DNA of 64,000 bases from Variovorax paradoxus (GTDB lineage Bacteria; Pseudomonadota; Gammaproteobacteria; Burkholderiales; Burkholderiaceae_C), in assembly GCF_018614955.1 (NCBI RefSeq), contig NZ_JAGGNV010000016.1, forward strand, positions 1 to 64,000, read 5' to 3'. The notes beneath the pieces were generated by a model. It did no database searches, was not told the DNA's origin, and worked only from the letters and a program-made list of their open reading frames with translations. The position numbers and the translations under genes are program-made. Of the stretch, positions 50,270 through 63,345 are shown piece after piece (position 1 is the stretch's first letter; each line of letters starts with the position of its first letter).

Positions 50270-51679
50270 ATGAGCAAACCCCAGGCGCACGAGCCGCAAG
50301 GCCGGCACCAGTCGAAGAAGGCCGCCGCCAGCGGCTGGATCGGCTCGGCCCTCGAGTACTACGACTTCTTCATCTACGCCACCGCGGCAGCGCTGATCTT
50401 TCCGCAGATCTTCTTTCCCAAGGGCGATCCGAATATCGCCATCGTCGCCTCGCTCGCGACCTATGGCGTCGGCTACGTGGCGCGGCCGATCGGCGCCTTC
50501 TTCCTGGGCCACTGGGGCGACACCCACGGCCGCAAGCAGGTGCTGATCCTGTGCATGTTCCTGATGGGCTTCTCGACCATCGCCGTCGGCCTCTTGCCCA
50601 CCTACGACCAGGTCGGCCTCTTGGCGCCGGTGCTGCTCGTGATCTGCCGCCTGGTGCAGGGCTTCGCGGTCGCCGGCGAGATCTCTGGCGCCAGTTCCAT
50701 GATCCTGGAGCACGCGCCCTTCGGGCGGCGCGGCTTCTTCGCCAGCTTCACGCTGCAGGGCGTGCAGGCCGGCCAGATCCTGGCTGCGGCGATCTTCCTT
50801 CCGCTCGCGCACTACATGCCGGAGGATGCCTTCAACAGCTGGGGCTGGCGCATTCCCTTCCTGCTGAGCTTCATCGTCATCGTCGCCGGCTACATCATCC
50901 GGCGCGAGGTCGACGAAACGCCCGCCTTCGCCGATGAAGGACAGCGGCAGAAGCTTCCGCGCTCGCCGATCGTCGACGCCTTCAAGTACAGCTGGAAGGA
51001 CATGCTGCGTGTCGTGCTGATGGCGCTGATGAACGTGATTCCAGTGGTCGCGACCATCTTCGGCGCGGCCTACGCGGTGCAGGCGGCCTACGGCATCGGC
51101 TTCGCGAAGGACATCTACCTGTGGATTCCGGTGCTGGGCAACATCCTGGCGGTGGTCGTGATCCCCTACGTGGGCAACCTGTCGGACCGCATCGGCCGCA
51201 AGCCGCCCATCGTCTTCGGCGCGCTGGCCTCGGGCCTGCTGGCCTTCGGCTACCTCTATGCGATCAGCATCAAGAACGTGCCGCTCGCGATCTGCATGTC
51301 GCTTTTGATGTGGGGCGTGGTCTACCAGGGCTACAACGCGGTGTTCCCGAGCTTCTACCCCGAGCTGTTCCCGACCCGCACCCGCGTCTCGGCGATGGCG
51401 ATCTCGCAGAACATCGGCACGGCTGCCACCGCGATGCTGCCGGCGCTGTTCGCGACGGTAGCGCCTCCCGGCGCGGCCAACATCCCGCTGATCGTGGGCT
51501 CGCTGGCCTTCGGCATCACGGTCATCTCGGCACTCGCCGCGCTGAGCGCCCGCGAGACCTACCGCGTCCACATGAACGACCTGGGCAATCCCGACGCGGT
51601 GCCGGTGCCCAAACAGGAGTACGAGCGCTTGCGCGAACAGACGCTGGCGGAGGCGAGGCTGGTGAAGGCGGCGGTCTGA
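50270..51679 (+). CDS. MHS-family MFS permease (shikimate/quinate-type)
   Basis: This 469-residue protein has twelve helices and belongs to the metabolite:H+ symporter family that contains ShiA, KgtP and ProP. Motifs are SALEYYDFFIYATAAALIF, GHWGDTHGRKQVLILCMF and RLVQGFAVAGEISGASS. The ShiA-like branch imports shikimate, which fits the catabolic cluster to the right. An exact IclR-type palindrome lies upstream of it and a related one beside the regulator gene. The substrate is inferred. Confidence 0.85.
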   Translation: MSKPQAHEPQGRHQSKKAAASGWIGSALEYYDFFIYATAAALIFPQIFFPKGDPNIAIVASLATYGVGYVARPIGAFFLGHWGDTHGRKQVLILCMFLMGFSTIAVGLLPTYDQVGLLAPVLLVICRLVQGFAVAGEISGASSMILEHAPFGRRGFFASFTLQGVQAGQILAAAIFLPLAHYMPEDAFNSWGWRIPFLLSFIVIVAGYIIRREVDETPAFADEGQRQKLPRSPIVDAFKYSWKDMLRVVLMALMNVIPVVATIFGAAYAVQAAYGIGFAKDIYLWIPVLGNILAVVVIPYVGNLSDRIGRKPPIVFGALASGLLAFGYLYAISIKNVPLAICMSLLMWGVVYQGYNAVFPSFYPELFPTRTRVSAMAISQNIGTAATAMLPALFATVAPPGAANIPLIVGSLAFGITVISALAALSARETYRVHMNDLGNPDAVPVPKQEYERLREQTLAEARLVKAAV

Positions 51680-51704
51680 AGCCTTGATGCAGGCGAGGGC
51701 GCGA

Positions 51705-52490
51705 TCAGATCAGATTGCGCATCGCCTGCGCCGTCTCGCGCAGCACCGGGAGGACGCGGGCAACCGCGTCCTCGCTGCCTTCGTGGCCCATGGGCATCGT
51801 GATGTTGAGCGCGCCCACCAACTCGCCGTGCCGGTCGCGCAGCGGCACGGCGATGCCGCGCGAATTGAGGTCCAGCTGCTGCTCCGAGAGCGCCCATCCC
51901 TGCGCGCGAATGCGCGCGAGCTCGAGCTTCATGCGCTCCTTGCTCGAAATGGTGTGCGAGGTGAAGACGGTGAGCTCGTGCGTGGCCAGCCAGTGGTTGA
52001 GCTCCTCGTCGCCGCGCATCGCCAGCATCAGCATGCCGGAGGCCGTGACCTGCGCCGGCACCCGCGCGCCCAGCACGTAGCCCGTGCTCATGCTGCGGTT
52101 GGGGCCGTTGCGCGCGATGTAGACCACCTCGTCGCCGTCCATCACGCTCAGATACGCGATCTCGTGCGTGCCGGCCGCCACCCGCTGCAGAAAGGGCTGC
52201 ACGATGCGCGGCAGCCGCGCCGACTCCAGGTAGGACTGGCCCAGGCGCAGCACCCGCGGCGTGAGCCAGAACAGCTTGCCGTCGCCCGCCACGTAGCCCA
52301 TGTGCTGCAGCGTGAGCAGGTAGCGGCGCGCGGCGGTGCGCGTCATGCCGGTGCGCTGGCCGGCCTCACTCGCCGTCATGCGCGGATGCGCGTCGTCGAA
52401 GGCCTCGATGACGGACACACCGCGCTCCAGGCCGGCGATCCAGTCGCGCTTGTCGAGTTCGGGCGGGGCGGGGCGGGTATCGATGCTCAT
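51705..52490 (-). CDS. IclR-family transcriptional regulator (PcaR/PobR-like)
   Basis: This 261-residue protein has an N-terminal winged helix (about 15-85): GVSVIEAFDDAHPRMTASEAGQRTGM then TRTAARRYLLTLQHMGYV. The IclR effector domain is in the remainder (DGDEVVYIARNGPNRSMSTGYVLG, LDLNSRGIAVPLRDRHGELVGALNI). The alternating order resembles PcaR/PobR-type regulators of aromatic acid catabolism. The ATG at 52490 is preferred; the frame also extends to a TTG at 52541. Its own site at 52511-52525 would allow autoregulation and control of both neighbours. Confidence 0.87.
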   Translation of the reverse strand: MSIDTRPAPPELDKRDWIAGLERGVSVIEAFDDAHPRMTASEAGQRTGMTRTAARRYLLTLQHMGYVAGDGKLFWLTPRVLRLGQSYLESARLPRIVQPFLQRVAAGTHEIAYLSVMDGDEVVYIARNGPNRSMSTGYVLGARVPAQVTASGMLMLAMRGDEELNHWLATHELTVFTSHTISSKERMKLELARIRAQGWALSEQQLDLNSRGIAVPLRDRHGELVGALNITMPMGHEGSEDAVARVLPVLRETAQAMRNLI

Positions 52491-52510
52491 TGAGGACAAA
52501 CCCTGGAATC

Positions 52511-52525
52511 GTTCGATGATCGATC
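52511..52525. promoter_or_regulatory. IclR-type site between iclR gene and catabolic operon
   Basis: GTTCGAT-G-ATCGATC matches the 15-bp palindrome at 50177-50191 in 14 positions. It is 21 bp upstream of the IclR start and 126 bp before the first operon gene. The form GTTCGAT-N-ATCG is close to the pca/pob IclR box. Confidence 0.6.
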
Positions 52526-52650
52526 GCTCCGGCGCGATCAACGCGCTATTCTCGTGCCACTAACTTGGATCGCGCAAGCGGGAACTCTACATTAGCCACC
52601 GTTCCTGCCGAATTGCGCGATAGCCGAACAACTCCGAGCGAGACAGCACC

Positions 52651-53574
52651 ATGTTCCCCTCCATTGCTGGCAGCACCGACCTCTACTTGATCCCCGGCGA
52701 TCCGGTGACCAATGTCCGCCTGCCTCGCATGTTCAACAGCGTCTTCGAGCGCTTCGGAATCGACGCGGTGATGGCGCCGGTGCACGTGGCGACGCGCGAC
52801 TTCGCCGTTTTCGTCAAGGCCGCCTTCCTCGCCAGGAACGTGCGCGGCATGGTGATCGCGCCGCCGCACAAGCCGCGGGTGGTGGACCTGCTCGACGGCG
52901 CCGGCTTGTTCGGCCGCGTCGCCGGCTCGGTCAACGTGGTGCGGCGCATCGCCAACGGCGAGCTCGAGGGCGATCTCTTCGACGGCGAGGGCCTGCTGGG
53001 CGCGCTGGACCACTACAACATCCCGTTCCGCGGCAAGCGGGTGCTGATCCTCGGCGCCGGCGTCAGCGCCGCGGCCATCGGCGTCGCGCTGGCCGAGGGC
53101 GGCACGGTCAACGGCGCCGAGCACATCGCTTTCCACGACATCTCGGCCGGCCAGGCGGCAGGGGTCGCTGCCAAGCTCGACGCCTTCTTCGACGCGACCA
53201 CGGTCGCGGTCGACAACAGCAATCCCGAAGGCTACGACCTGGTCATCAACGCTACGCCGCTGGGCCTGAAGGACGGCGATGCCCTGCCGGTGGACGTGGC
53301 CCGCATGGAGGCGCACGCGGCGCTGTTCGACATCCTGCTGCGCAACCAGCCCACGCCGCTGGTGCGCGCCGCCCGCGCGCGCGGGCTCAACGCGCAGGCC
53401 GGCTTCGAGATGCTGATCCAGCAGATGCCGTACTACCTCGACTACTTCGGCCACACGGCCGCGGCGCATGGCGTGCGCGACGACGCGCGCTTCCTGCGCG
53501 AGCTGATCTATCCGGACGCAATGGCGGCGGAGATCGACGCGCCCTTGCGCTACCACTCCGACAGCGTCGCCTGA
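52651..53574 (+). CDS. divergent shikimate-dehydrogenase-family enzyme (copy 1)
   Basis: This 307-residue oxidoreductase keeps the AroE-type catalytic lysine (APPHKPRVVDL) and aspartate (EGDLFDGEGLL). Rossmann motif VLILGAGVSAAA and NATPLGLKDGD are present. The N-terminal carboxylate-binding Ser-x-Ser (normally HSLSP) reads NVRLP, so both serines are absent. The strand after the Rossmann motif ends in FHDIS, with Asp rather than the Asn-Arg-Thr of NADPH enzymes, which favours NAD. It is the first gene of a catabolic operon; oxidation of a quinate/shikimate-like cyclitol is the leading proposal, and a true AroE role is unlikely. Confidence 0.8.
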   Translation: MFPSIAGSTDLYLIPGDPVTNVRLPRMFNSVFERFGIDAVMAPVHVATRDFAVFVKAAFLARNVRGMVIAPPHKPRVVDLLDGAGLFGRVAGSVNVVRRIANGELEGDLFDGEGLLGALDHYNIPFRGKRVLILGAGVSAAAIGVALAEGGTVNGAEHIAFHDISAGQAAGVAAKLDAFFDATTVAVDNSNPEGYDLVINATPLGLKDGDALPVDVARMEAHAALFDILLRNQPTPLVRAARARGLNAQAGFEMLIQQMPYYLDYFGHTAAAHGVRDDARFLRELIYPDAMAAEIDAPLRYHSDSVA

Positions 53575-53582
53575 AAGGGCGC

Positions 53583-54476
53583 GTGCAAAGCATCATGGCC
53601 ATTCCGCTCGACCGCTTCGGCTTCAACACCGTCACCATGGGCGGCGACCTCGGGCACAAGCTCGAGTGCATGAAGGCCGCGGGCTTTTCCGGCGTCGAGC
53701 TGTGGGCGCGCGACCTGATCGCGCATCCGGCCGGCGTCGAGAAGGCGGCCGAGCTGGTCAAGGCCAGCGGCCTCAAGGTGACCGACTTCCAGCCGCTGCG
53801 CGATTTCGAATGCGCGCCCGACGCCATGCGGCCGCACCGGCTCGAGATGGCGCGCGAGCAGCTGCGCCAGATGGCGCTGGTCGGCGCCGACCTGCTGCTG
53901 GTGTGCTCCACCACCTCGCCGCTGGCCATCGACGATCCGGAGCGCGCGGCCGAGGACTTGCGCACGCTCGCCACGCTGGCCACGCCGCTTCGCATCCGCA
54001 TCTGCTACGAGGCGCTGTCCTGGGGCCGCCACGTCAACCGCTGGCACCAGGCCTGGGACATCGTGAAGCGCTGCAACCGAGAAAACGTCGGCCTCAATCT
54101 CGATTCCTTCCACATGTCGGTGCACGGCGACGACACGCCCGAGACGCTCGCGCAGCTGGCCGAGGTGCCGGTCGAGAAGATCTTCCTGGTGCAGCTGGCC
54201 GACTACTTCTTCGAATACAGCGACCGCCAGGCCGACATGATCGAGCTCGCGCGCCACCAGCGCCTGTTTCCGGGCGAGGGCCTGCACGACGTGCGCGACC
54301 TGGTGCAGCTGCTCGAGGATAAGGGCTACCGCGGCCACTACACCTTCGAGGTGTTCAACGACGACTATGTGAATTCCGACCCCATGGTGGTCGGCCAGCG
54401 CGCGATGAAGAGCGCGCGCTGGATCAGCGAGAGCCACGTGAGCACCAGCAATTCAACCCCAAGGAGACAAGCATGA
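53583..54476 (+). CDS. 3-dehydroshikimate dehydratase-like TIM-barrel enzyme
   Basis: This 297-residue protein is an AP-endonuclease-2-type TIM barrel. The segment CYEALSWGRHVNRWHQAWDIVKR, with the metal-ligand Glu, is characteristic of QuiC/AsbF-like dehydratases that turn 3-dehydroshikimate into protocatechuate with loss of water. NVGLNLDSFHMSVHGDD and FEVFNDDYVNSD carry further metal ligands. The expected fusion partner of QuiC1 (an HPPD-like domain) is missing, so it is a single-domain form. The start is GTG 53583 or ATG 53595; neither has a clear Shine-Dalgarno sequence. It overlaps the next gene by 4 bases. Sugar isomerase is the main alternative. Confidence 0.75.
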   Translation: MQSIMAIPLDRFGFNTVTMGGDLGHKLECMKAAGFSGVELWARDLIAHPAGVEKAAELVKASGLKVTDFQPLRDFECAPDAMRPHRLEMAREQLRQMALVGADLLLVCSTTSPLAIDDPERAAEDLRTLATLATPLRIRICYEALSWGRHVNRWHQAWDIVKRCNRENVGLNLDSFHMSVHGDDTPETLAQLAEVPVEKIFLVQLADYFFEYSDRQADMIELARHQRLFPGEGLHDVRDLVQLLEDKGYRGHYTFEVFNDDYVNSDPMVVGQRAMKSARWISESHVSTSNSTPRRQA

Positions 54477-55639
54477 CCATCGTTCCATCGCGTCGCTTCG
54501 CGATCCAGCTCATCGCCGCCTGCGCCGTGGCCGCGGGCGCTTCCGGCGCCTTCGCGCAGAACACGATCAAGATCGTCAACATCGTGGAGCTCTCGGGCGG
54601 CGGCGCAACCGCCGGCACCAACTTCAAGAACGGCGTCGAGCTGGCGGTGAAGGAGATCAACGCCTCGGGCGGCATCCTCGGCAAGAAGATCGAGTCGAGC
54701 ACCAGCGACACGCAGAGCAACCCCGGCGTCGCCAAGGGCCTGACGCAGAAGGCGGTGGACAACGAAGTCTTCGCCATCTTCGGCCCCGTGTTCTCGGGCT
54801 CGATCATGGTCAGCATGGCCGAGAGCCGCCGCGCCGAGATTCCCAACTTCACCGGCGGCGAGGCGGCCAGCATCACGCAGCAGGGCAACAAGTACATCTT
54901 CCGCACCAGCTTCACGCAGACCACCGCGATGCCGAAGGTCGCGCGCTACATCGACCAGCAGATCAAGGCGAAGACGCTGGCCGTGATCTACGTCAACAAC
55001 GACTTCGGCAAGGGCGGCCTCGATTCGATGAAGAAGGCGCTGGCCGCCACGCCGGTGAAGATCGCGGCCGAGATCTCGACCGAGCCGGGACAGATCGACT
55101 TTTCCGCCGCGGTGCTGCGCGCCAAGCAGAGCAATGCCGATGCGCTCTTCGCCTACAGCAACGAGGAAGAGTCGGCGCGCCTGCTGCGCGAGCTGCGCAA
55201 GCAGGGCTGGAGCAAGCCGATTGTGGGCGAGACCACGCTCACCGGCCAGAAGGTGATCGACCTCGCGGGCGAGGCGGCCAACGGCGCGATCGCGCACGTG
55301 GGGCTCACGGTCGACGCGCCGAACCCGGCCATCCGCGCCTTCCGCGCCAAGTTCGAGAAGGAATACAAGTACGTCTCGGACCACAACGGCATGAAGGGCT
55401 ACTCGGGCGTCTACCTGCTCAAGGCCGCGATCGAGAAGGTCGGCAAGCTCGACCGCAAGGCCGTTGCCGCCGCACTGCACGGCCTGAAGGTAAGCACCGC
55501 GCAGCAGCCCGGCGTGCTGATGGACGTCAGCGTCGACGCCAACGGCGACCTCGACCGCGAAAGCTTCATGGTGGAAGTGAAGAACGGCAAGCAGGAAGTG
55601 ATCGCCACGCTGCCGGCCCTGGGCGCAGCCGCCAAGTAG
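54473..55639 (+). CDS. HAAT-type ABC importer binding protein
   Basis: This 388-residue periplasmic protein of the LivJ/Peripla_BP_6 class has a signal peptide cleaved after about residue 28 (GAFAQ|NT). The mature fold starts TIKIVNIVELSGGGATAGTNFKNG and contains DTQSNPGVAK and GPVFSGSIMVSMAESRRAEIPN. It begins in an ATGA overlap after the dehydratase-like gene and precedes four other transporter genes. Family members bind branched amino acids, aromatic acids or amides. The operon suggests a hydroaromatic or aromatic carboxylate. Confidence 0.87.
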   Translation: MTIVPSRRFAIQLIAACAVAAGASGAFAQNTIKIVNIVELSGGGATAGTNFKNGVELAVKEINASGGILGKKIESSTSDTQSNPGVAKGLTQKAVDNEVFAIFGPVFSGSIMVSMAESRRAEIPNFTGGEAASITQQGNKYIFRTSFTQTTAMPKVARYIDQQIKAKTLAVIYVNNDFGKGGLDSMKKALAATPVKIAAEISTEPGQIDFSAAVLRAKQSNADALFAYSNEEESARLLRELRKQGWSKPIVGETTLTGQKVIDLAGEAANGAIAHVGLTVDAPNPAIRAFRAKFEKEYKYVSDHNGMKGYSGVYLLKAAIEKVGKLDRKAVAAALHGLKVSTAQQPGVLMDVSVDANGDLDRESFMVEVKNGKQEVIATLPALGAAAK

Positions 55640-55645
55640 CCTCGC

Positions 55646-56521
55646 ATGACGGACTTCATCCAGCTCTTCCTGAGCGGGCTGGCCACCGGCAGCATCTATG
55701 CGCTGGCCGCGCTGGGCTTCACGCTGCTGTGGCAGGCCAGCGGCACCATCAACTTCGCGCAGGGCGAGTTCGTGATGCTGCCGGCCTTCGCGATGCTCGC
55801 CTTCATGTCCTTCGGCGCGCCGCTGTCGCTCAGCTTCGTGCTGACGATCGTGGTGGCGGTCTTCGTGCTGGGCTGGCTCTTCAAGCGCGGCCTGGTCGAT
55901 CCGCTGTTCAAGTTCGGGATGATGCCGATCGTGGTGGCCACCATCGGCCTGTCGATCGCGCTGCGCAACGGCGTGCGCGCCGGCTACAGCGCCGAGGCGC
56001 ATCCCTTCCCCAGCCTCTTTGCCGACAAGCTCTTCAACGTGGCGGGGGTCACCGTCACGATGGCCGACCTCGGCACCTTCGGGCTGGCGGTGGCGATCGT
56101 GCTGGCCACGCAGGCCTTCATCTCGAAGACCGTGACCGGCCGCGCGATGCAGGCTGTGGCGCAGAACACCGAGAGTGCCAGCGTGCTGGGCATCAACGTG
56201 CCGCGCATGATCTTCTACACCTTCGCCATCAATGCAGCGCTGGCGGTGGCGGCGGCGCTGCTGGTCACGCCCACCTACCTCGCCAAGTTCGACATGGGCG
56301 AGGGCCTGGGCACCAAGGCCTTCTTCGCGGCCATCATCGGCGGCTTCAACAATTCGCGCGGCGCGCTGCTCGGCGGCCTGATCGTCGGCGTGGCGGAGAA
56401 CCTGGCCTCGGCCTACATCTCGCCGGCCTACAAGGACGCGGTGGCGCTGGTCATCTTCATGGTCGTGATCCTGTTCAAGCCGCAAGGCCTGCTGGGCAAG
56501 AAAGAGGAGCGCAAGGTATGA
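55646..56521 (+). CDS. HAAT-type ABC importer permease, LivH-like
   Basis: This 291-residue membrane protein has about eight helices. LivH family segments are LAALGFTLLWQASGTINFAQGEFVML, KTVTGRAMQAVAQNTESASVLGIN and FAAIIGGFNNSRGALLGGLIVGV. The start follows the binding-protein gene by 6 bases, and its end overlaps the LivM-like gene by ATGA. The two permeases form the pore. Confidence 0.88.
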   Translation: MTDFIQLFLSGLATGSIYALAALGFTLLWQASGTINFAQGEFVMLPAFAMLAFMSFGAPLSLSFVLTIVVAVFVLGWLFKRGLVDPLFKFGMMPIVVATIGLSIALRNGVRAGYSAEAHPFPSLFADKLFNVAGVTVTMADLGTFGLAVAIVLATQAFISKTVTGRAMQAVAQNTESASVLGINVPRMIFYTFAINAALAVAAALLVTPTYLAKFDMGEGLGTKAFFAAIIGGFNNSRGALLGGLIVGVAENLASAYISPAYKDAVALVIFMVVILFKPQGLLGKKEERKV

Positions 56522-57513
56522 AGAAGACGCATCTCGCGCTGATGGCCGCGGCTGCCGCCGCACTGCTGATCGCGCCCAACTTCCTCAAGAACTACGGCAT
56601 CTACCTGCTGAGCTACTGGCTGGTGTTCATCATCGCCACCATGGGACTCAACCTGACGGTGGGCTATGCAGGCCAGAAGTCGCTGGGGCATGCCGCCTTC
56701 TTCGGCATCGGCGCCTACACGGTGGCGATCCTCATGAAGGCCGGCATCAGCTTCTGGCTGGGCCTGCCTGCGGCGGCGCTCTTGTGCTTCGCGGTCGGCC
56801 TGGTGCTGGGCTTTCCGGCGCTGCGCGTGCAGGCGATCTACCTCGCCTTTGCCACGCTGGGCTTCAACACCGCGATCTGGCTCTTGATGCGCAACGAGGA
56901 GTGGCTGACCGGCGGCACCTTCGGCATCAACAACATCCCGCGGCCCGAGCTGGCCGGGCTGTCGCTGGAGGGCAACCTGGCCTACTACTACTTCGTGCTG
57001 GCCGTCGCCGTGCTGCTCGCGCTGCTGCTGTGGGGCCTCTTGCGCTCGCCCTGGGGCAAGGCCTTCACCGCGCTGCGCGACAACCCGATCCGCGCCGAAA
57101 GCCTGGGTATCAGCGTGCGCAGCTACACCTTGCTGAGCTTCGCCATCGGCGCCGCCTACGCGGGCGTCGCCGGGGCGCTGTTCGCCTCGCTGGTGCAGTT
57201 CATCGAGCCGGCGCCCTTCAACGTGGCGGCCTCGATCATGATGTACCTGATGGTGGTGGTCGGCGGCCCCGGCTACTTCTGGGGGCCGGTGCTGGGCGCG
57301 GCCGTCGGCGTGATCGTGCCCGAATGGCTGCGCGACGTGCCGGGCGTGGCCGACTGGTACCTGCCGCTGTTCGGCGCCGCCGTGGTGGTGCTGATGGTCT
57401 GGCTGCCGGACGGATTGCTCTCGATCCCCGATCGCATTCGGGCACGCCGCGAAGCGCGCGAAGCCTCGGCCGCGCGCTCCGCTGCTGCCGCGAGCATGGG
57501 AGCTGCGACATGA
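56518..57513 (+). CDS. HAAT-type ABC importer permease, LivM-like
   Basis: This 331-residue membrane protein has about eight to ten helices. LivM-type segments are GLNLTVGYAGQKSLGHAAFFGIGAY and LRDNPIRAESLGISVRSYTLLSFAIGAAYAGVAG. A conserved GGPGYFWGPVLGAA loop is near residue 245. The C-terminus ends in a short Ala/Arg-rich tail. Both ends overlap neighbours by ATGA. Confidence 0.88.
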   Translation: MKKTHLALMAAAAAALLIAPNFLKNYGIYLLSYWLVFIIATMGLNLTVGYAGQKSLGHAAFFGIGAYTVAILMKAGISFWLGLPAAALLCFAVGLVLGFPALRVQAIYLAFATLGFNTAIWLLMRNEEWLTGGTFGINNIPRPELAGLSLEGNLAYYYFVLAVAVLLALLLWGLLRSPWGKAFTALRDNPIRAESLGISVRSYTLLSFAIGAAYAGVAGALFASLVQFIEPAPFNVAASIMMYLMVVVGGPGYFWGPVLGAAVGVIVPEWLRDVPGVADWYLPLFGAAVVVLMVWLPDGLLSIPDRIRARREAREASAARSAAAASMGAAT

Positions 57514-58295
57514 ACGCCGTACTTGCAGAGGCCATCGTGCCCGAGCAGCAGGTGGTGCCGGTTCTTCGCGTGAGCGATCTCAGCAAGGCCTACGGCGCCA
57601 TCCAGGCCGTCGGCGGCGTGAGCTTCGAGGTGCGCCCCGGCGAGATCTTCGGCGTGATCGGCCCCAACGGATCGGGCAAGACCACGCTGTTCAACAGCAT
57701 GCTCGGCCAGATCACGCCCGATGCCGGCCGCATCGAGCTCAAGGGCGAGGACGTGACGAAGCTGGGTCCGCTCGAGCTCAACCGGCGCGGCGTCGGCCGC
57801 ACCTTCCAGACGCTGCAGGTTTTCGGCAAGATGACGGTGCGCGAGAACCTGATCGTCGCGGCACAGGAGCACCAGGGCAGCATGTTCAGCCGAATGTTCG
57901 CGCCCGGCGACTCGGGCCTGGGGCCGAAGGCCGACGCGCTGATCGACCAGTTCCGCATCCGCCACGTCGCGAACAAGAAGGCCGGCACGCTCTCCTACGG
58001 CCAGCAGAAGCTGGTGGACATCGGCATGGCCTTCATGAGCGAGCCCGACCTGGTGCTGCTCGACGAGCCCTGCGCAGGCGTCAATCCCAGCCTGGTCGGC
58101 GGACTCTCGACCCTGCTGAAGGATCTGAACCGCACGCGCCGCGGCAGCTTCGTCGTGATCGAGCACAACATGGACTTCGTGATGGACCTGTGCCACCGCA
58201 TCATGGTGATGGTCGAGGGCAAGGTGATGGCGATCGGCACGCCGGCCGAGATCCGCGCCAACAAGCAGGTGCTGGACGCCTATCTCGGGAATTGA
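57510..58295 (+). CDS. HAAT-type ABC importer ATPase, LivG-like
   Basis: This 261-residue ATPase has Walker A GPNGSGKTTLFN, signature LSYGQQKLVDIGMA, Walker B LVLLDEP and the LivG-specific CAGVNPSLVGGLS segment. The H-loop reads VIEHNMDFV, with histidine present. It overlaps the LivM-like gene by ATGA and is 2 bases from the LivF-like gene. The two ATPases form the engine of the importer, and both ATP sites look intact. Confidence 0.89.
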   Translation: MNAVLAEAIVPEQQVVPVLRVSDLSKAYGAIQAVGGVSFEVRPGEIFGVIGPNGSGKTTLFNSMLGQITPDAGRIELKGEDVTKLGPLELNRRGVGRTFQTLQVFGKMTVRENLIVAAQEHQGSMFSRMFAPGDSGLGPKADALIDQFRIRHVANKKAGTLSYGQQKLVDIGMAFMSEPDLVLLDEPCAGVNPSLVGGLSTLLKDLNRTRRGSFVVIEHNMDFVMDLCHRIMVMVEGKVMAIGTPAEIRANKQVLDAYLGN

Positions 58296-58297
58296 TC

Positions 58298-59053
58298 ATG
58301 ACCACCACCGACACCTGCATCGAATTCGACAACGTGCTGGCGGGCTACAAGGATTTCATGATCCTCAACAACCTGTCCTTCAAGGCCAGGCGCGGCAAGA
58401 TCACGCTGCTGCTCGGGCCCAACGGCGCGGGCAAGTCGACCGTGCTCAAGACGCTGTTCGGCCTGCTCAAGGTGCGCAACGGACGGGTCCTGCTCGATGG
58501 CGAGGACATCACCGGCGCCAGTCCGAAGGATCTGCTGGTGAAGCACGGCATCGCCTTCGTGCCGCAGGGGCGCAATCTGTTCGGCCAGTTGACGGCCTAC
58601 GAGAACCTAGAGCTCGGCGGCATCACGCTGGGCATGAAGACCACGCATGAGCGCATCCCCGAAGTGCTCGAGCTGTTCCCGCGCGTGAAGGAGCGCATGA
58701 ACAGCGCGGCTTCTTCGCTCTCGGGCGGCGAGCAGAAGCAGCTCGAGGTCGGCCGTGCGCTGCTGCTGCGGCCCAAGGTGCTCTTGATCGACGAACCCTC
58801 GATCGGCCTGTCGCCGATGGTGGTGCAGGACGTGTTCAGGCTGCTGCGCAAGCTTGCCGACCAGGGCACCACGGTGCTGATGGTCGAGCAGAACGTGAAG
58901 AGCGCGCTGAAGATGGCCGACGAGGCCATCGCGCTCGAATCGGGCCGGCTGGTGCTGCACAAGCCGGCCTCCGAACTGCTGGCCGATCCGAACATCGAGC
59001 GCCTGTTCCTCGGCGGCGCGCATGCCGCCGCGGCGCCGGCCGCCACGGTCTGA
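58298..59053 (+). CDS. HAAT-type ABC importer ATPase, LivF-like
   Basis: This 251-residue ATPase has Walker A GPNGAGKSTVLK, signature LSGGEQKQLEVGRALL, Walker B VLLIDEPSIGLSP and H-loop MVEQNVKSAL, with Gln in place of the usual His as in many LivF proteins. The C-terminus ends in an Ala-rich tail. It is followed after 12 bp by the Gfo/Idh gene with GAGGAGAG as ribosome site, so the operon continues. Confidence 0.89.
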   Translation: MTTTDTCIEFDNVLAGYKDFMILNNLSFKARRGKITLLLGPNGAGKSTVLKTLFGLLKVRNGRVLLDGEDITGASPKDLLVKHGIAFVPQGRNLFGQLTAYENLELGGITLGMKTTHERIPEVLELFPRVKERMNSAASSLSGGEQKQLEVGRALLLRPKVLLIDEPSIGLSPMVVQDVFRLLRKLADQGTTVLMVEQNVKSALKMADEAIALESGRLVLHKPASELLADPNIERLFLGGAHAAAAPAATV

Positions 59054-59065
59054 GGAGAGGGTGCG

Positions 59066-60112
59066 ATGGACAGGAAGCTGCGTCTCGCGATCGCCGGCGC
59101 CGGCCTGATCGGCCGGGCGCATTGGATGCGCATGGTCGCGAACAGCGCCTGCGAATTGATCGGCTTTGCCGACCCGTTCCCGAGCGCGACTGCGCTGGCG
59201 GCCGAGGCCGGCGTGCCGCTGTACCCGGACCTCGACGCGCTGCTGGCCGCGGCGCGGCCCGACGGCGTGGTCCTGGCCACGCCGAACGCGCTGCACGTGC
59301 CCGGTGCGCTGGCCTGCGTGCAAGCCGGCGTGCCGGCGCTGGTCGAGAAGCCGGTGGCCGATTCCCTGGCGGAGGCCGAGCGGCTGGCCGCGGCGGTGGA
59401 AGCCTCGAAAGTACCCGTGCTGGTGGGCCACCACCGGCGCCACAGCGCCGTTCTCGAAGCCGCGCGCGAGACGATCGCCAGCGGCCGCCTCGGCAAGTTG
59501 GTGGCCGTGACGGCCAGCGCCACCTTCCACAAGCCCGACGAGTACTTCGAGGCCGCATGGCGCCGGCAGAAGGGCGGCGGGCCGATCCTGATCAACCTGG
59601 TGCACGAGATCGACAACCTGCGCGCGCTGGTGGGCGAGATCGTCGAAGTGCAGGCCTTCGCTTCCCATGCGGCGCGCGGCTTCGAGGTGGAGGACACGGT
59701 CGCCATCAACCTGCGCTTCGCCAACGGCGCGCTCGGCACCTTCATGCTGTCGGATGCCGCGGCCAGTCCGCGCAGCTGGGAGCAGACCTCGGGCGAGAAC
59801 AAGTCCTACGACCACCATGCGGACCAGGACTGCTACATCATCGCCGGCACGCACGGCTCGCTGCAGGTGCCCACCCTGCGCGTCTTCGAGTACGCCGGTG
59901 CGGCCTCGTGGTTCAACCCTTTGGCACGCGGCAAGATCGATATGCACGAAAGCGATCCGCTCGCGCGCCAGCTCGCTCATTTCTGCGCCGTGGTGCGGCG
60001 CGAAGTGCCGCCCCGTGTCACCGTGCGCGATGCCATGCGCACGCTGGCTGTCACCCTTGCGGTCGCCGAGGCCGCGCATACCGGCCTTCGGGTCGCGATT
60101 CCACCAGGATGA
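59066..60112 (+). CDS. Gfo/Idh/MocA-family oxidoreductase
   Basis: This 348-residue NAD(P)-dependent dehydrogenase has Rossmann motif AIAGAGLIGRAHW, the signature EKPVADSLAEAE with catalytic Lys, and VGHHRRHSAVLEAAR. A second region, INLVHEIDNLRALVG, contains the catalytic His. The family oxidises or reduces sugar and cyclitol ketone/alcohol groups, such as myo-inositol. Its place between the importer and the second shikimate-dehydrogenase homologue suggests that it oxidises a ring hydroxyl of the imported compound. The cofactor and substrate are not evident. It ends in an ATGA overlap with the next gene. Confidence 0.85.
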   Translation: MDRKLRLAIAGAGLIGRAHWMRMVANSACELIGFADPFPSATALAAEAGVPLYPDLDALLAAARPDGVVLATPNALHVPGALACVQAGVPALVEKPVADSLAEAERLAAAVEASKVPVLVGHHRRHSAVLEAARETIASGRLGKLVAVTASATFHKPDEYFEAAWRRQKGGGPILINLVHEIDNLRALVGEIVEVQAFASHAARGFEVEDTVAINLRFANGALGTFMLSDAAASPRSWEQTSGENKSYDHHADQDCYIIAGTHGSLQVPTLRVFEYAGAASWFNPLARGKIDMHESDPLARQLAHFCAVVRREVPPRVTVRDAMRTLAVTLAVAEAAHTGLRVAIPPG

Positions 60113-60951
60113 AGAAGATGATTTCCGGAAAGACCACCCTCATCGCCCACCTCGGCTATCCGACCGAGAGCTTCAAGGCGCCGATGATCTACAACCCCTG
60201 GTTCGAACAGCAGGGCATCGACGCCGTCGTGGTGCCGATGGGCATCAAGGCCGAGGACTATGCGGCTGCCTTCGCATCGCTGTTCCAGCTCACCAACATC
60301 CGCGGCGCGCTCGTCACCATGCCGCACAAGATCACGACCATGGACCTGGTCGACGAGCTGACGCCGGCCGCCCGGATCGCGGGTGCCTGCAACGCGGTGC
60401 TGAAGCGCGCCGACGGCACGCTCGTGGGCGACCAGTTCGACGGCGCCGGCTTCGTGCGCGGCGTGCTGCGCAAGAGCCGCGCGCTCGAAGGCGCGCGCGT
60501 GCTGGTGTCGGGCTGCGGCGGCGTCGGCTCGGCCATCGCCGCCTCGCTGGCCGCGGCCGGTGTCGCGCAGCTCTCGCTCTTCGACGCCAACGCGGCGTCG
60601 GCCAAGGCGCTCGCGGGCCGGCTCACCACGCACCATCCGAAATTGGGCGTAGCCACCGGCTCCAGCGACCCCGCCGGCTACGACGTGGTGGTCAATGCCA
60701 CGCCGCTCGGCATGAAGGAGGGCGATCCGCTACCCTTCGACATCGACCGCATCGCGCCGTCCACCTTCGTCGGCGAGGTCGTGATGAAATCCGAGTACAC
60801 CCCGCTGCTGCGGGCCGCGCGCGACAAGGGCTGCGCGGTCCAGGTCGGCACCGACATGCTGTTCGAAATGATCCCTGCGTACCTCGAATTCTTCGGCTTC
60901 GGCACCGCGACGCCTGAAGACCTGCGGGCCGTCGCGAAGATCGCCTATTGA
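60109..60951 (+). CDS. divergent shikimate-dehydrogenase-family enzyme (copy 2)
   Basis: This 280-residue second AroE homologue has catalytic Lys in TMPHKITTMDL and Asp in VGDQFDGAGF. The Rossmann motif is VLVSGCGGVGSAIA, followed by LFDANAAS with Asp, as in NAD-preferring enzymes. NATPLGMKEGDPLPFD is conserved. As in copy 1 the carboxylate-binding Ser-x-Ser is lost (ESFKAP for the usual HSLSP). The start at 60109 gives an ATGA overlap; an internal ATG lies at 60118. It is only distantly similar to copy 1, so a different step or substrate is likely. Confidence 0.8.
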   Translation: MKKMISGKTTLIAHLGYPTESFKAPMIYNPWFEQQGIDAVVVPMGIKAEDYAAAFASLFQLTNIRGALVTMPHKITTMDLVDELTPAARIAGACNAVLKRADGTLVGDQFDGAGFVRGVLRKSRALEGARVLVSGCGGVGSAIAASLAAAGVAQLSLFDANAASAKALAGRLTTHHPKLGVATGSSDPAGYDVVVNATPLGMKEGDPLPFDIDRIAPSTFVGEVVMKSEYTPLLRAARDKGCAVQVGTDMLFEMIPAYLEFFGFGTATPEDLRAVAKIAY

Positions 60952-60962
60952 GCAAGACGGCC

Positions 60963-62174
60963 ATGAGTATCTTCGAAGGCTTCCTCTCCACATCCGAAAC
61001 CCTGGCCGCGTTCAGCGACCACAACTTCGTCGGCGCGATGCTGCGCTTCGAGGCCGCGCTCGCGCGCGCGCAGGCGGCCGAGGGCCTCATTCCCGAATCG
61101 GCAGCGCATTCGATCGCCGGCAGCTGCAAGGTCGAGTTGTTCGATGTTGCCAAGATCGTGCGCGACAGCGGCCGTGCCGGCAGCGTGGCGATCCCGCTGG
61201 TCAAGAGCCTCAAGGAAGCGGTGGGATTGTTCAATGCCGAGGCGGTGCCCTACGTGCATTTCGGCAGCACCAGCCAGGACGTGATCGACAGCGCGATGGC
61301 GCTGGTCACGCGCGAGGCGGTGGCGCTGGTCGAGGCCGACCTGGTGAAGGCGGCGCAGGCGCTGCTTGCGCATGCCAAGCGCCACGCCGCGACGCCGATC
61401 CTCGCGCGCACGCTGATGCAGCCGGCGTCGGTCACGAGCTTCGGGCTCAAGTGCGCCGGCTGGGCCGCGCCGCTGGTGCGCAGCCGTGCGCGGCTGGCCG
61501 ATGCCGCGCGCCGCGCGCTGCAGCTGCAGCTCGGCGGGGCCGTGGGCACGCTGGCGCAGATGAAGGGGCAGGGGTCGGCGGTGCGGCAGCGCATGGCCGA
61601 GGAGCTGGGCCTGGGCGACCCGGGCGCGACCTGGCACACCCAGCGCGACGAATGGGTCGCGCTCGGCTGCGAGCTGGGCCTCATGGTCGGCAGCCTCGGC
61701 AAGATCGCGAAGGACATCGCGCTCATGGGCCAGTACGAAGTCGGCGAACTGGCCGAGCCCAGCGAGCCCGGGCGCGGCGGCTCCTCGGCGATGCCGCACA
61801 AGCGCAACCCGGTGGCCTCGATGGTGGCGCTGGCGGCCGCGCAGCGCGCGCCGCAGCGCGTGGCCGCCTTGCTGGCCGCGATGCCGCAGGAGCACGAGCG
61901 CGCGCTCGGCGCCTGGCAGGCCGAGCTGGGCGAGTGGCCCCAGCTGCTGATGTCCGCCCACGGCAGCGTGCGCGCGCTGGCCGGCGCCTTGCCCGGCCTG
62001 CAGATCGATGCGGCGCGCATGCGTGCCAACATCGACCGGCTGCGTGCGGAACTTCCGAGCGAAGCCGCGGACGAATGGTTTGATCCGGCACTCGCCGAGC
62101 CGGCCGGCACGATCGCGCTGGCGCAGGTCAAGGCCTTGCAATCTCAACTCGACACACGAAATACTGCACGATGA
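60963..62174 (+). CDS. pcaB: 3-carboxy-cis,cis-muconate cycloisomerase-like lyase
   Basis: This 403-residue protein belongs to the fumarase/aspartase superfamily with the signature GRGGSSAMPHKRNPVA near residue 275 (catalytic Ser loop). HFGSTSQDVIDSAMALV and LARTLMQPASVTSFG are also conserved. CMLE enzymes cyclise 3-carboxymuconate to 4-carboxymuconolactone; the adjacent pcaC- and pcaD-like genes make this the best call. ATG 60963 is preferred to an upstream TTG. The stop overlaps pcaC by ATGA. Confidence 0.85.
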   Translation: MSIFEGFLSTSETLAAFSDHNFVGAMLRFEAALARAQAAEGLIPESAAHSIAGSCKVELFDVAKIVRDSGRAGSVAIPLVKSLKEAVGLFNAEAVPYVHFGSTSQDVIDSAMALVTREAVALVEADLVKAAQALLAHAKRHAATPILARTLMQPASVTSFGLKCAGWAAPLVRSRARLADAARRALQLQLGGAVGTLAQMKGQGSAVRQRMAEELGLGDPGATWHTQRDEWVALGCELGLMVGSLGKIAKDIALMGQYEVGELAEPSEPGRGGSSAMPHKRNPVASMVALAAAQRAPQRVAALLAAMPQEHERALGAWQAELGEWPQLLMSAHGSVRALAGALPGLQIDAARMRANIDRLRAELPSEAADEWFDPALAEPAGTIALAQVKALQSQLDTRNTAR

Positions 62175-62584
62175 CTTCCCCCGACTACGAAGCCGGTCTT
62201 CTCAACCGCCGCCGCATCCTCGGCGACGCCTGGGTCGACAAGTCGCTGGCCAACCGCAATGCCTTCAACAGCGAGTTCCAGGAGCTGATCACGCGCCATG
62301 CATGGAACGACATCTGGGGCCGCCCGGCGCTGGGCGACAAGACACGCCGCTTCATGGTGCTGTCGATGATGCTGGGCATCCACGCGTATGAAGAATTCGC
62401 GATGCACGTGCGCGCCGCGCTCGACGGCCCGCCCGAATCGCGGCTCTCGCCCGAGGAGATCAAGGAAGTGATCATGATGGCCGCCATCTACTGCGGCGTG
62501 CCGGTGGCCAACCACGCCTTCGGCATCGCCACCGGCATCCTGCGCGAGAAAGGCCTGCTCGAAGAACCCAAGGGAAAGCCATGA
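62171..62584 (+). CDS. pcaC: 4-carboxymuconolactone decarboxylase
   Basis: This 137-residue alpha-helical protein has the CMD family core: FQELITRHAWNDIWGRPALGDKTRR, SMMLGIHAYEEFAMHVRAAL and EVIMMAAIYCGVPVANHAFGIA. It decarboxylates 4-carboxymuconolactone to 3-oxoadipate enol-lactone in the protocatechuate branch. The length matches PcaC. It overlaps pcaB and pcaD by ATGA on either side. Confidence 0.92.
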   Translation: MTSPDYEAGLLNRRRILGDAWVDKSLANRNAFNSEFQELITRHAWNDIWGRPALGDKTRRFMVLSMMLGIHAYEEFAMHVRAALDGPPESRLSPEEIKEVIMMAAIYCGVPVANHAFGIATGILREKGLLEEPKGKP

Positions 62585-63345
62585 CCCGACTGAATGTCAT
62601 TCGCGAGGGCGAAGGCCCGATCGTCGTGCTCAGCCATGCGCTGGGCTGCGACCTGCACATGTGGGACGAGGTGGCGGCCGTGCTGGCGCGCGCCCACACC
62701 GTGCTGCGCTACGACCACCGCAACCATGGCGGCTCGGAAGTGGTGCCCGGCCCGTTCAGCCTGCAGGCGCTGGCCGAGGACGCGGCGGCGCTGATCGAGC
62801 GCGAGGCCGAGGGCGAGCCGGTGCACTTCGTCGGCCTCTCGATGGGCGGCATGACCGCGCAGGCGCTGGCGCCGAAGTATCCGCAGCTGCTGAAGAGCGT
62901 CGTGATCGCCAATTCGTCGGCCTACTACCCCGACCAGACACCCTGGCGCACACGCGTCGAGACCGTGCAGGCCCAGGGCGTGGCCGCGATCGCGCCGGGC
63001 GCCTTGGCGCGCTGGCTGACGCCGGCGTACGTGGCCACGCCGGAAGGCACCGAGGCCGCGCGTCGGCTGAACGACACGCTGGTCGGCACCGACGCCGCCG
63101 CCTACATCGCGAGCTGCAACGCGGTGAGCGCGATCGACTTTCGCGAGAGCAACCGTGCGGTCACCACGCCCACGCTGGTGATCGCCGGCCTGCGCGACGA
63201 GGCGACCCCGCTCGCGATGTCCGAGGCGATGGTCGCCGCCATCCCCGGCGCGCGCCTCGCCACCATCGATGCGGCGCACCTGAGCGCGGTCGAGCGGCCG
63301 GTGGAATTCAGCCAGTTGCTGATCGATTTCTGGCGCAGCCTCTGA
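62581..63345 (+). CDS. pcaD: 3-oxoadipate enol-lactonase
   Basis: This 254-residue alpha/beta hydrolase has nucleophile elbow GLSMGGMTAQALA near residue 85, the oxyanion region LSHALGCDLHMWD, and catalytic His in IDAAHLSAVERP near the end. It hydrolyses enol-lactone to 3-oxoadipate. The start overlaps pcaC. No pcaIJ or pcaF genes follow within the window. Confidence 0.9.
   Translation: MTRLNVIREGEGPIVVLSHALGCDLHMWDEVAAVLARAHTVLRYDHRNHGGSEVVPGPFSLQALAEDAAALIEREAEGEPVHFVGLSMGGMTAQALAPKYPQLLKSVVIANSSAYYPDQTPWRTRVETVQAQGVAAIAPGALARWLTPAYVATPEGTEAARRLNDTLVGTDAAAYIASCNAVSAIDFRESNRAVTTPTLVIAGLRDEATPLAMSEAMVAAIPGARLATIDAAHLSAVERPVEFSQLLIDFWRSL

Follow-up and report, generated by a model that had tools for sequence, protein, structure and literature searches.

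How an enzyme of the shikimate dehydrogenase (SDH) family can work without the residues that hold its substrate's carboxylate, and which substrate it then takes, is the question raised by two genes of Variovorax paradoxus. Both lie in a window of 64,000 nucleotides (contig NZ_JAGGNV010000016.1, positions 1 to 64,000 of the forward strand), in the interval 52651-60951, which is made up of the two SDH homologues and seven genes between them. Copy 1 (52651..53574, + strand; 307 amino acids) and copy 2 (60112..60951, + strand) are open frames. The start codon of copy 2 is probably ATG 60118, the start site of its orthologues (277 amino acids), or else ATG 60109 (280 amino acids), which overlaps the stop codon of the preceding Gfo/Idh/MocA gene. 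The Ser-x-Ser-Pro motif is regarded as the carboxylate grip of SDHs, and the two copies appear to represent a common catabolic class that breaks this motif, probably on the same acids. We consider it likely that both are catabolic dehydrogenases that use nicotinamide adenine dinucleotide (NAD), belong to a divergent, RifI2-like SDH class, serve a cluster for the uptake and degradation of quinate and shikimate, and hold the acid differently.

Ser14 and Ser16 of the motif are present in AroE and YdiB. The original prediction held that both copies lack these carboxylate serines, retain the catalytic Lys and Asp, and carry an Asp after the second Rossmann strand, and a residue-by-residue comparison bears out all three claims. 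In a gap-free alignment, HSKSP of Escherichia coli AroE and HSLSP of YdiB stand opposite NVRLP in copy 1 (residues 21-25; 52711..52725, + strand) and SFKAP in copy 2 (residues 20-24 when counted from base 60112, as are all copy 2 residues below; 60169..60183, + strand); S14-K15-S16 of AroE thus corresponds to V22-R23-L24 and F21-K22-A23, respectively. Tyr215 of AroE and YdiB, in AroE presumably the third carboxylate ligand, has become Leu in copy 1 and Met in copy 2, AroE positions 215-216 being Leu230-Arg231 (53338..53343, + strand) and Met225-Lys226 (60784..60789, + strand). The AroE positions changed in both copies include 14, 16, 59, 100, 101, 149, 150 and 215, with Asn59 and Asn100 substituted in both; Thr61 is lost from copy 1 and kept by copy 2, and Gln244 is lost from copy 2 and kept by copy 1. 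The catalytic Lys/Asp pair is kept together with an Asn (K74/N95/D111 in copy 1, K73/N94/D110 in copy 2). The residue after the second Rossmann strand is Asp in both (D163 in FHDIS, D158 in LFDAN), where AroE has Asn-Arg.

The altered pocket is shared by a whole class. We compared 110 sequences collected by similarity to the copies (both copies, their orthologues, distant relatives and the chain of PDB entry 4K28) with 31 AroE sequences, namely that of E. coli and the 30 loci scoring best for the N-terminal domain, a choice that favours canonical motifs. None of the 108 class sequences that cover the motif has Ser14, against 31/31 AroE sequences; position 16 is Ser in 16 and Thr in 3 of the 108, against Ser in 31/31; and Tyr215 occurs in 0/110 versus 31/31. 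Position 59 is almost wholly replaced across the class. Asp149, the residue after the second Rossmann strand, is present in 105/110 class members and in no AroE, all 31 of which carry Asn149-Arg150. Lys65, Asn86 and Asp102 are invariant in both sets (110/110 and 31/31).

Two basic residues stand beside the lost hydroxyls. A Lys or Arg occupies position 15 in 108/108 class sequences and in 25/31 AroE sequences (Fisher p 8e-5, kinship ignored), and position 216 in 97/110 versus 0/31. Among the 80 copy 2 orthologues, F14, K15 and M215 are found in every one and K216 in 79, and position 16 is Ala in 70 and Ser in 10. The copy 1 orthologues (39 in all) carry V14 and R15 in 38/38 that cover the motif, with Leu (36) or Ala (2) at position 16; their residue 216 is Arg in 37 and Lys in 2. 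Since both basic residues are conserved beside the missing hydroxyls, a novel mode of carboxylate binding is plausible and is the favoured alternative. The substrate carboxylate would be held without Ser14, Ser16 and Tyr215, with the basic residues 15 and 216 as leading candidates; these may replace the Ser/Ser/Tyr anchor, Arg231 of copy 1 and Lys226 of copy 2 being the candidate new anchors at position 216. The retained Lys65/Asp102 pair would serve hydride transfer.

Both genes are also under constraint. A codon comparison of equal-length sequences without gaps gave ratios of nonsynonymous to synonymous substitution rates (dN/dS) of about 0.14-0.32 for copy 1 and copy 2 in 8 comparisons, that is, purifying selection; a gene of Variovorax sp. 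CF079 shares 97% identity with copy 2. With the altered residues fixed among orthologues and purifying selection acting on both genes, the change of the pocket is not due to chance. Gene decay was set aside because the dN/dS values are well below 1. Structure prediction and phylogeny had been proposed as checks, and the former gave confident SDH-fold models for both proteins, with AlphaFold predicted local distance difference test (pLDDT) values of 91.5 for copy 1 and 93.3 for copy 2. The models show the two-domain SDH fold and superpose on 1npd, 3t4e, 3tnl and 4k28 across 262-274 residues, nearly their full length; copy 1 reaches Z 33.7 to 3tnl, 33.0 to 3t4e and 31.2 to 4k28, and copy 2 reaches Z 34.0 to 1npd (YdiB), 34.0 to 3t4e and 33.5 to 4k28. 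A loss of enzyme function in one copy, which would then be a sensor or a decayed paralogue, would fit so strong a change of the pocket; the invariance of Lys65, Asn86 and Asp102 throughout the class, the dN/dS values and the confident models make this extremely improbable.

By sequence family, too, the copies are divergent SDH homologues. The Pfam domain Shikimate_dh_N (PF08501) matches at 41.3 bits in copy 1 and 60.6 bits in copy 2, both over the cut-off of 27. The best NCBIfam model for AroE or quinate/shikimate dehydrogenase reaches 120.1 bits in copy 1, under its cut-off of 200.2 (among 17 matches listed), and 153.5 bits in copy 2, under its cut-off of 252 (among 25 of 30 matches). The genome's own AroE is encoded on a separate contig, C54, with the motif HSRSP; this separate AroE, the failure of the motif and the scores under the NCBIfam cut-offs speak against the copies as AroE duplicates. 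The nearest solved sequence of both is 4k28 (E 1.6e-34 for copy 1, 3.4e-46 for copy 2). It is a 'shikimate dehydrogenase family protein' of Pseudomonas putida KT2440 that we take to be RifI2, and its co-crystallised ligand is presumably NAD+. Both copies are closer to it than to YdiB or QsuD, and orthology with either of these was set aside. A phylogeny built with FastTree from 144 sequences, with an AroE as its root, unites both copies in a group that excludes AroE, YdiB and 5-ketofructose reductase. A node of 104 members without 4K28 has a support of 0.988, the copy 1 clade of 40 has 0.984 and the copy 2 clade of 58 has 0.996. The phylogenetic check thus upheld the separation from AroE and YdiB and failed to give a supported clade with 4K28: the 110-member node that takes in 4K28 has a support of 0.0, and its exact place in the tree is therefore not fixed.

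What the enzymes act on is suggested by the genes around them. Directly downstream of copy 1 lies a gene for a QuiC-like 3-dehydroshikimate dehydratase (53595..54476, + strand), a single-domain TIM barrel that matches NCBIfam QuiC (E 5.6e-59), PF01261 and PDB 5hmq (E 3.6e-46); its QuiC score of 200.2 bits compares with a cut-off of 1200 that was set for a longer, two-domain protein. QuiC-type enzymes convert 3-dehydroshikimate to protocatechuate. In QsuB, which is related to QuiC, the N-terminal domain gives the dehydratase activity, according to an excerpt of one report (PMC7442255). The window's QuiC consists of the TIM-barrel half only, and several relatives have an HPPD-like stretch close to it yet apart from it, as if QuiC1 had been split; this is annotated in region L009 and seen by tblastn positions in L201, L212, L214, L215, L216 and L239.

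On the other side, copy 2 is followed by PcaB, a 3-carboxy-cis,cis-muconate cycloisomerase (60948..62174, + strand; TIGR02426 368.9 bits, over the cut-off of 355.75), a PcaC-like 4-carboxymuconolactone decarboxylase (62171..62584, + strand; TIGR02425 133.2 bits, under 155.7, with PF02627 over its cut-off) and a PcaD-like 3-oxoadipate enol-lactonase (62581..63345, + strand; TIGR02427 231.3 bits, under 255.85). Among the ten proteins scanned and the matches listed, PcaB alone reaches an NCBIfam cut-off. A dehydroshikimate dehydratase and pca genes thus adjoin the dehydrogenases, which marks a quinate/shikimate catabolic cluster. NAD use fits Asp149, and the claim of NAD use in the catabolic direction is well supported by this residue together with a cluster predicted to lead from quinate and shikimate to protocatechuate.

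The remaining genes of the cluster (50270-63345) would serve uptake and regulation, with one further oxidoreductase. Upstream of copy 1 are a major facilitator superfamily (MFS) metabolite/H+ symporter related to shikimate transporters (50270..51679, + strand; TIGR00883 360.8 bits and the shikimate transporter model NF007414 261.6 bits, both under cut-off) and, divergent from copy 1, an IclR regulator of the PcaR/PcaU/PobR type (51705..52541, - strand; TIGR02431 270 bits, under the cut-off of 284.75). Between QuiC and copy 2 lies an ATP-binding cassette (ABC) uptake system of the branched-chain type (54473..59053, + strand), with a binding protein (54473-55639, + strand; PF13458, E 3e-66) and, as judged by eye, permeases and two ATPases. 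It is followed by the Gfo/Idh/MocA oxidoreductase (59066..60112, + strand; PF01408, PF02894 and PF22725; iolG model 128.2 bits, cut-off 355). Gfo-like genes also occur near relatives of copy 2 in distant genomes (regions L202, L205, L213, L220 and L222, weakly L215) and in Rhizobium (L008). Among the papers listed from a literature that takes in few subscription journals, no report of this cluster was found.

Is the company of these genes more than local? Of at least 493 relatives, the best 80 by similarity to copy 2 were scanned by tblastn over flanks of at most 10 kb, many of them from Variovorax, which makes the counts non-independent. The control consisted of 20 AroE regions, one from the same genome and 19 from others, mostly genomes other than those of the copy 2 loci. 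A QuiC relative, counted by the TIM-barrel half alone, lies in reach in 49/80 copy 2 loci versus 1/20 AroE regions (Fisher p 6e-6, kinship ignored), and that sole match is region L200, which itself holds a relative of copy 2. The corresponding figures are 17/80 versus 2/20 for dehydroquinase, 41/80 versus 1/20 for pcaB/C/G/H, and 59/80 versus 3/20 for any of these markers. Some loci hold several of these genes together: QuiC1, copy 2 and AroQ are consecutive in Pseudogulbenkiania ferrooxidans, with the families confirmed; a Comamonadaceae plasmid unites pcaGH, a 3-oxoacid coenzyme A-transferase, pcaF, copy 1, copy 2, relatives of pcaB/C/D and quiC1; and a Rhizobium plasmid carries quiC1, aroQ, an ABC system, a Gfo gene, copy 2 and pca genes. 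In 40 further regions, with copy 2 relatives 33-81% identical and some possibly from the same organisms as the 80 loci, a QuiC relative was found in 19, a dehydroquinase in 5 and pcaB/C/G/H in 2.

From this cluster and linkage, quinate and shikimate, both free acids, are the likely substrates. The original prediction had also proposed a substrate without a free carboxylate. This could be a quinate ester or amide, a cyclitol or a keto sugar, for which the anchors would have been lost as unneeded. All three anchors are indeed gone from both copies, the 5-ketofructose reductase structure 7cok of Gluconobacter is structurally close, and the Gfo/Idh/MocA neighbour resembles inositol dehydrogenases. 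There is also a precedent: a 'putative shikimate dehydrogenase' of T. morbirosei is a 5-ketofructose reductase, with a substrate that has no carboxylate, as an excerpt of the source describes (PMC7954740). A carboxylate-free substrate is nevertheless not favoured, because the neighbours (QuiC, PcaB, PcaC and, in relatives, AroQ) act on carboxylates; copy 2 orthologues stand directly before AroQ in 13/80 loci, and basic residues lie beside the lost anchors. We regard it as quite unlikely.

How the two acids would be divided between the copies is suggested by the same linkage. The link of copy 2 to AroQ, and hence to 3-dehydroquinate, argues for quinate as its substrate. Copy 1, found in 37 of the 80 copy 2 loci, is there accompanied by QuiC in 36, by pca genes in 36 and by dehydroquinase in 2; being tied to QuiC and rarely to dehydroquinase, it fits shikimate. 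Most likely, then, copy 2 would oxidise quinate to 3-dehydroquinate with NAD, a dehydroquinase from another part of the genome would give 3-dehydroshikimate, copy 1 would oxidise shikimate to 3-dehydroshikimate with NAD, QuiC would yield protocatechuate, and PcaB, PcaC and PcaD would take the ring-cleavage product onward. It is possible, if doubtful, that the roles are reversed or that each enzyme, like YdiB, accepts either acid: Thr61 survives in copy 2 and Gln244 in copy 1, different parts of the hydroxyl-binding set of AroE, and copy 2 occurs without copy 1 in reach in 43/80 loci. The distribution of dehydroquinase, present in 2/37 loci with copy 1 versus 15/43 without it (Fisher p 0.002, inflated by relatedness), ties that enzyme to copy 2.

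The genome also encodes two type II dehydroquinases, on contigs C90 and C71, and yields eight matches to the family of dioxygenases to which PcaGH belongs. The gene at C71:57016-57426 (L252) is flanked, as judged by eye, by genes resembling binding proteins of tripartite ATP-independent periplasmic (TRAP) transporters, and because of this position it may be the catabolic one. The model for glucose/quinate/shikimate dehydrogenases dependent on pyrroloquinoline quinone gave three matches in this genome, none over cut-off.

Several points weigh against the assignment of both copies to quinate and shikimate with a new carboxylate grip, besides the choice of AroE sequences, the relatedness of the loci and the origin of the control regions given above with the counts. 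In the cluster itself no type II dehydroquinase was found in the search of this genome, in which type I was not searched for. No QuiC, dehydroquinase or pcaB/C/G/H lies in reach in 21/80 copy 2 loci, some of which place copy 2 next to a transporter of the MFS or ABC type, and the same absence of markers is true of 21 of the 40 further regions. The ten most distant of these 40 carry none of the markers; they were picked after their neighbours had been seen, and comprise six deep branches of the tree and four with relatives 42-43% identical to copy 2, outside the tree. On a plasmid of Ponticoccus alexandrii (L010), a relative 69% identical to copy 2 has TRAP transporter genes, a TIM-barrel protein and a short-chain dehydrogenase/reductase as its neighbours, with no annotated pca genes within 20.8 kb. 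Residue 216 is not basic in 4k28 and 12 other class members. Thr61 and Gln244, each lost from one copy, are presumably ring-hydroxyl contacts in AroE. RifI2 is said to fall far short of AroE in its activity on shikimate and to show no more than traces of activity on quinate, so that the substrate of the class may differ. Finally, the Gfo/Idh/MocA enzyme beside copy 2 could itself be the quinate dehydrogenase.

The last two points lead to a further explanation, in which the copies take a different alicyclic acid whose breakdown likewise leads to 3-dehydroshikimate or protocatechuate (a stereoisomer of quinate, an amino analogue or a dihydroshikimate) and quinate is left to the Gfo/Idh/MocA enzyme. 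Three dehydrogenases within one cluster would then have a ready account, and a Gfo match occurs in 6/40 further regions. We think this unlikely, as copy 2, AroQ and QuiC1 occur together without any Gfo match in regions L025, L034, L049 and L086, and a Gfo of the window's type is found in only 3/80 copy 2 loci.

If the copies are, as preferred here, NAD-dependent dehydrogenases of quinate and shikimate, the finding may reach beyond one genome. We propose, tentatively, that a widespread catabolic class of quinate/shikimate dehydrogenases grips the carboxylate by Lys or Arg at positions 15 and 216, and not by the Ser/Ser/Tyr trio of AroE and YdiB. Were this true, many genes annotated as 'shikimate dehydrogenase' in such clusters would encode a mechanistically distinct, quinate-degrading enzyme. 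Quinate and shikimate are plant acids, and a substrate assignment for the RifI2-like class would sharpen the annotation of 'shikimate dehydrogenase' in soil and plant-associated bacteria.

Compared with known systems, the copies share the fold and Lys65/Asn86/Asp102 with AroE and depart from it in the anchors and at 149-150, as counted above. E. coli YdiB, a quinate/shikimate dehydrogenase, resembles them in fold, in Lys/Asp catalysis and in NAD binding (1npd), and ydiB is followed by aroD in E. coli just as some copy 2 relatives are followed by aroQ; unlike the copies, YdiB keeps Ser14, Ser16 and Tyr215, and its Asp is at 152, not 149. QsuD of Corynebacterium glutamicum (3jyo, 2nlo), by structure title a quinate dehydrogenase with NAD, is similar in fold (3jyo, Z 29.9 and 30.5), with a sequence less similar to the copies than that of 4K28. 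The 5-ketofructose reductase of Gluconobacter (7cok) has the SDH fold, with Z 33.0 and 32.6 to the models of the copies, and we know of no link of this enzyme to aromatic catabolism. That of T. morbirosei accepts NADPH only, as stated in the excerpt cited above (PMC7954740).

The closest comparison is with 4K28, which, like both copies, lacks Ser14 and Tyr215 and has a basic residue 15 and Asp149, and which, unlike them, keeps Ser16 and has Ser at 216, where the copies have Arg or Lys. Other P. putida SDH structures are those of AroE (4omu) and Ael1 (3pwz). Close relatives of 4K28 were found in 0/369 class-level genomes by a search that had no positive control. RifI2 (Peek et al. 2013) reportedly has unusual substrate- and cofactor-binding motifs and prefers NAD. 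It is also said to have a C-terminal truncation, which is not present in copy 1: the 4K28 chain has 269 residues, compared with 277-280 in copy 2 and 307, with a longer tail, in copy 1. If 4K28 is indeed RifI2, the altered pocket and the use of NAD belong to a class already described, and what this locus would add to it is the loss of all three anchors and the catabolic context.

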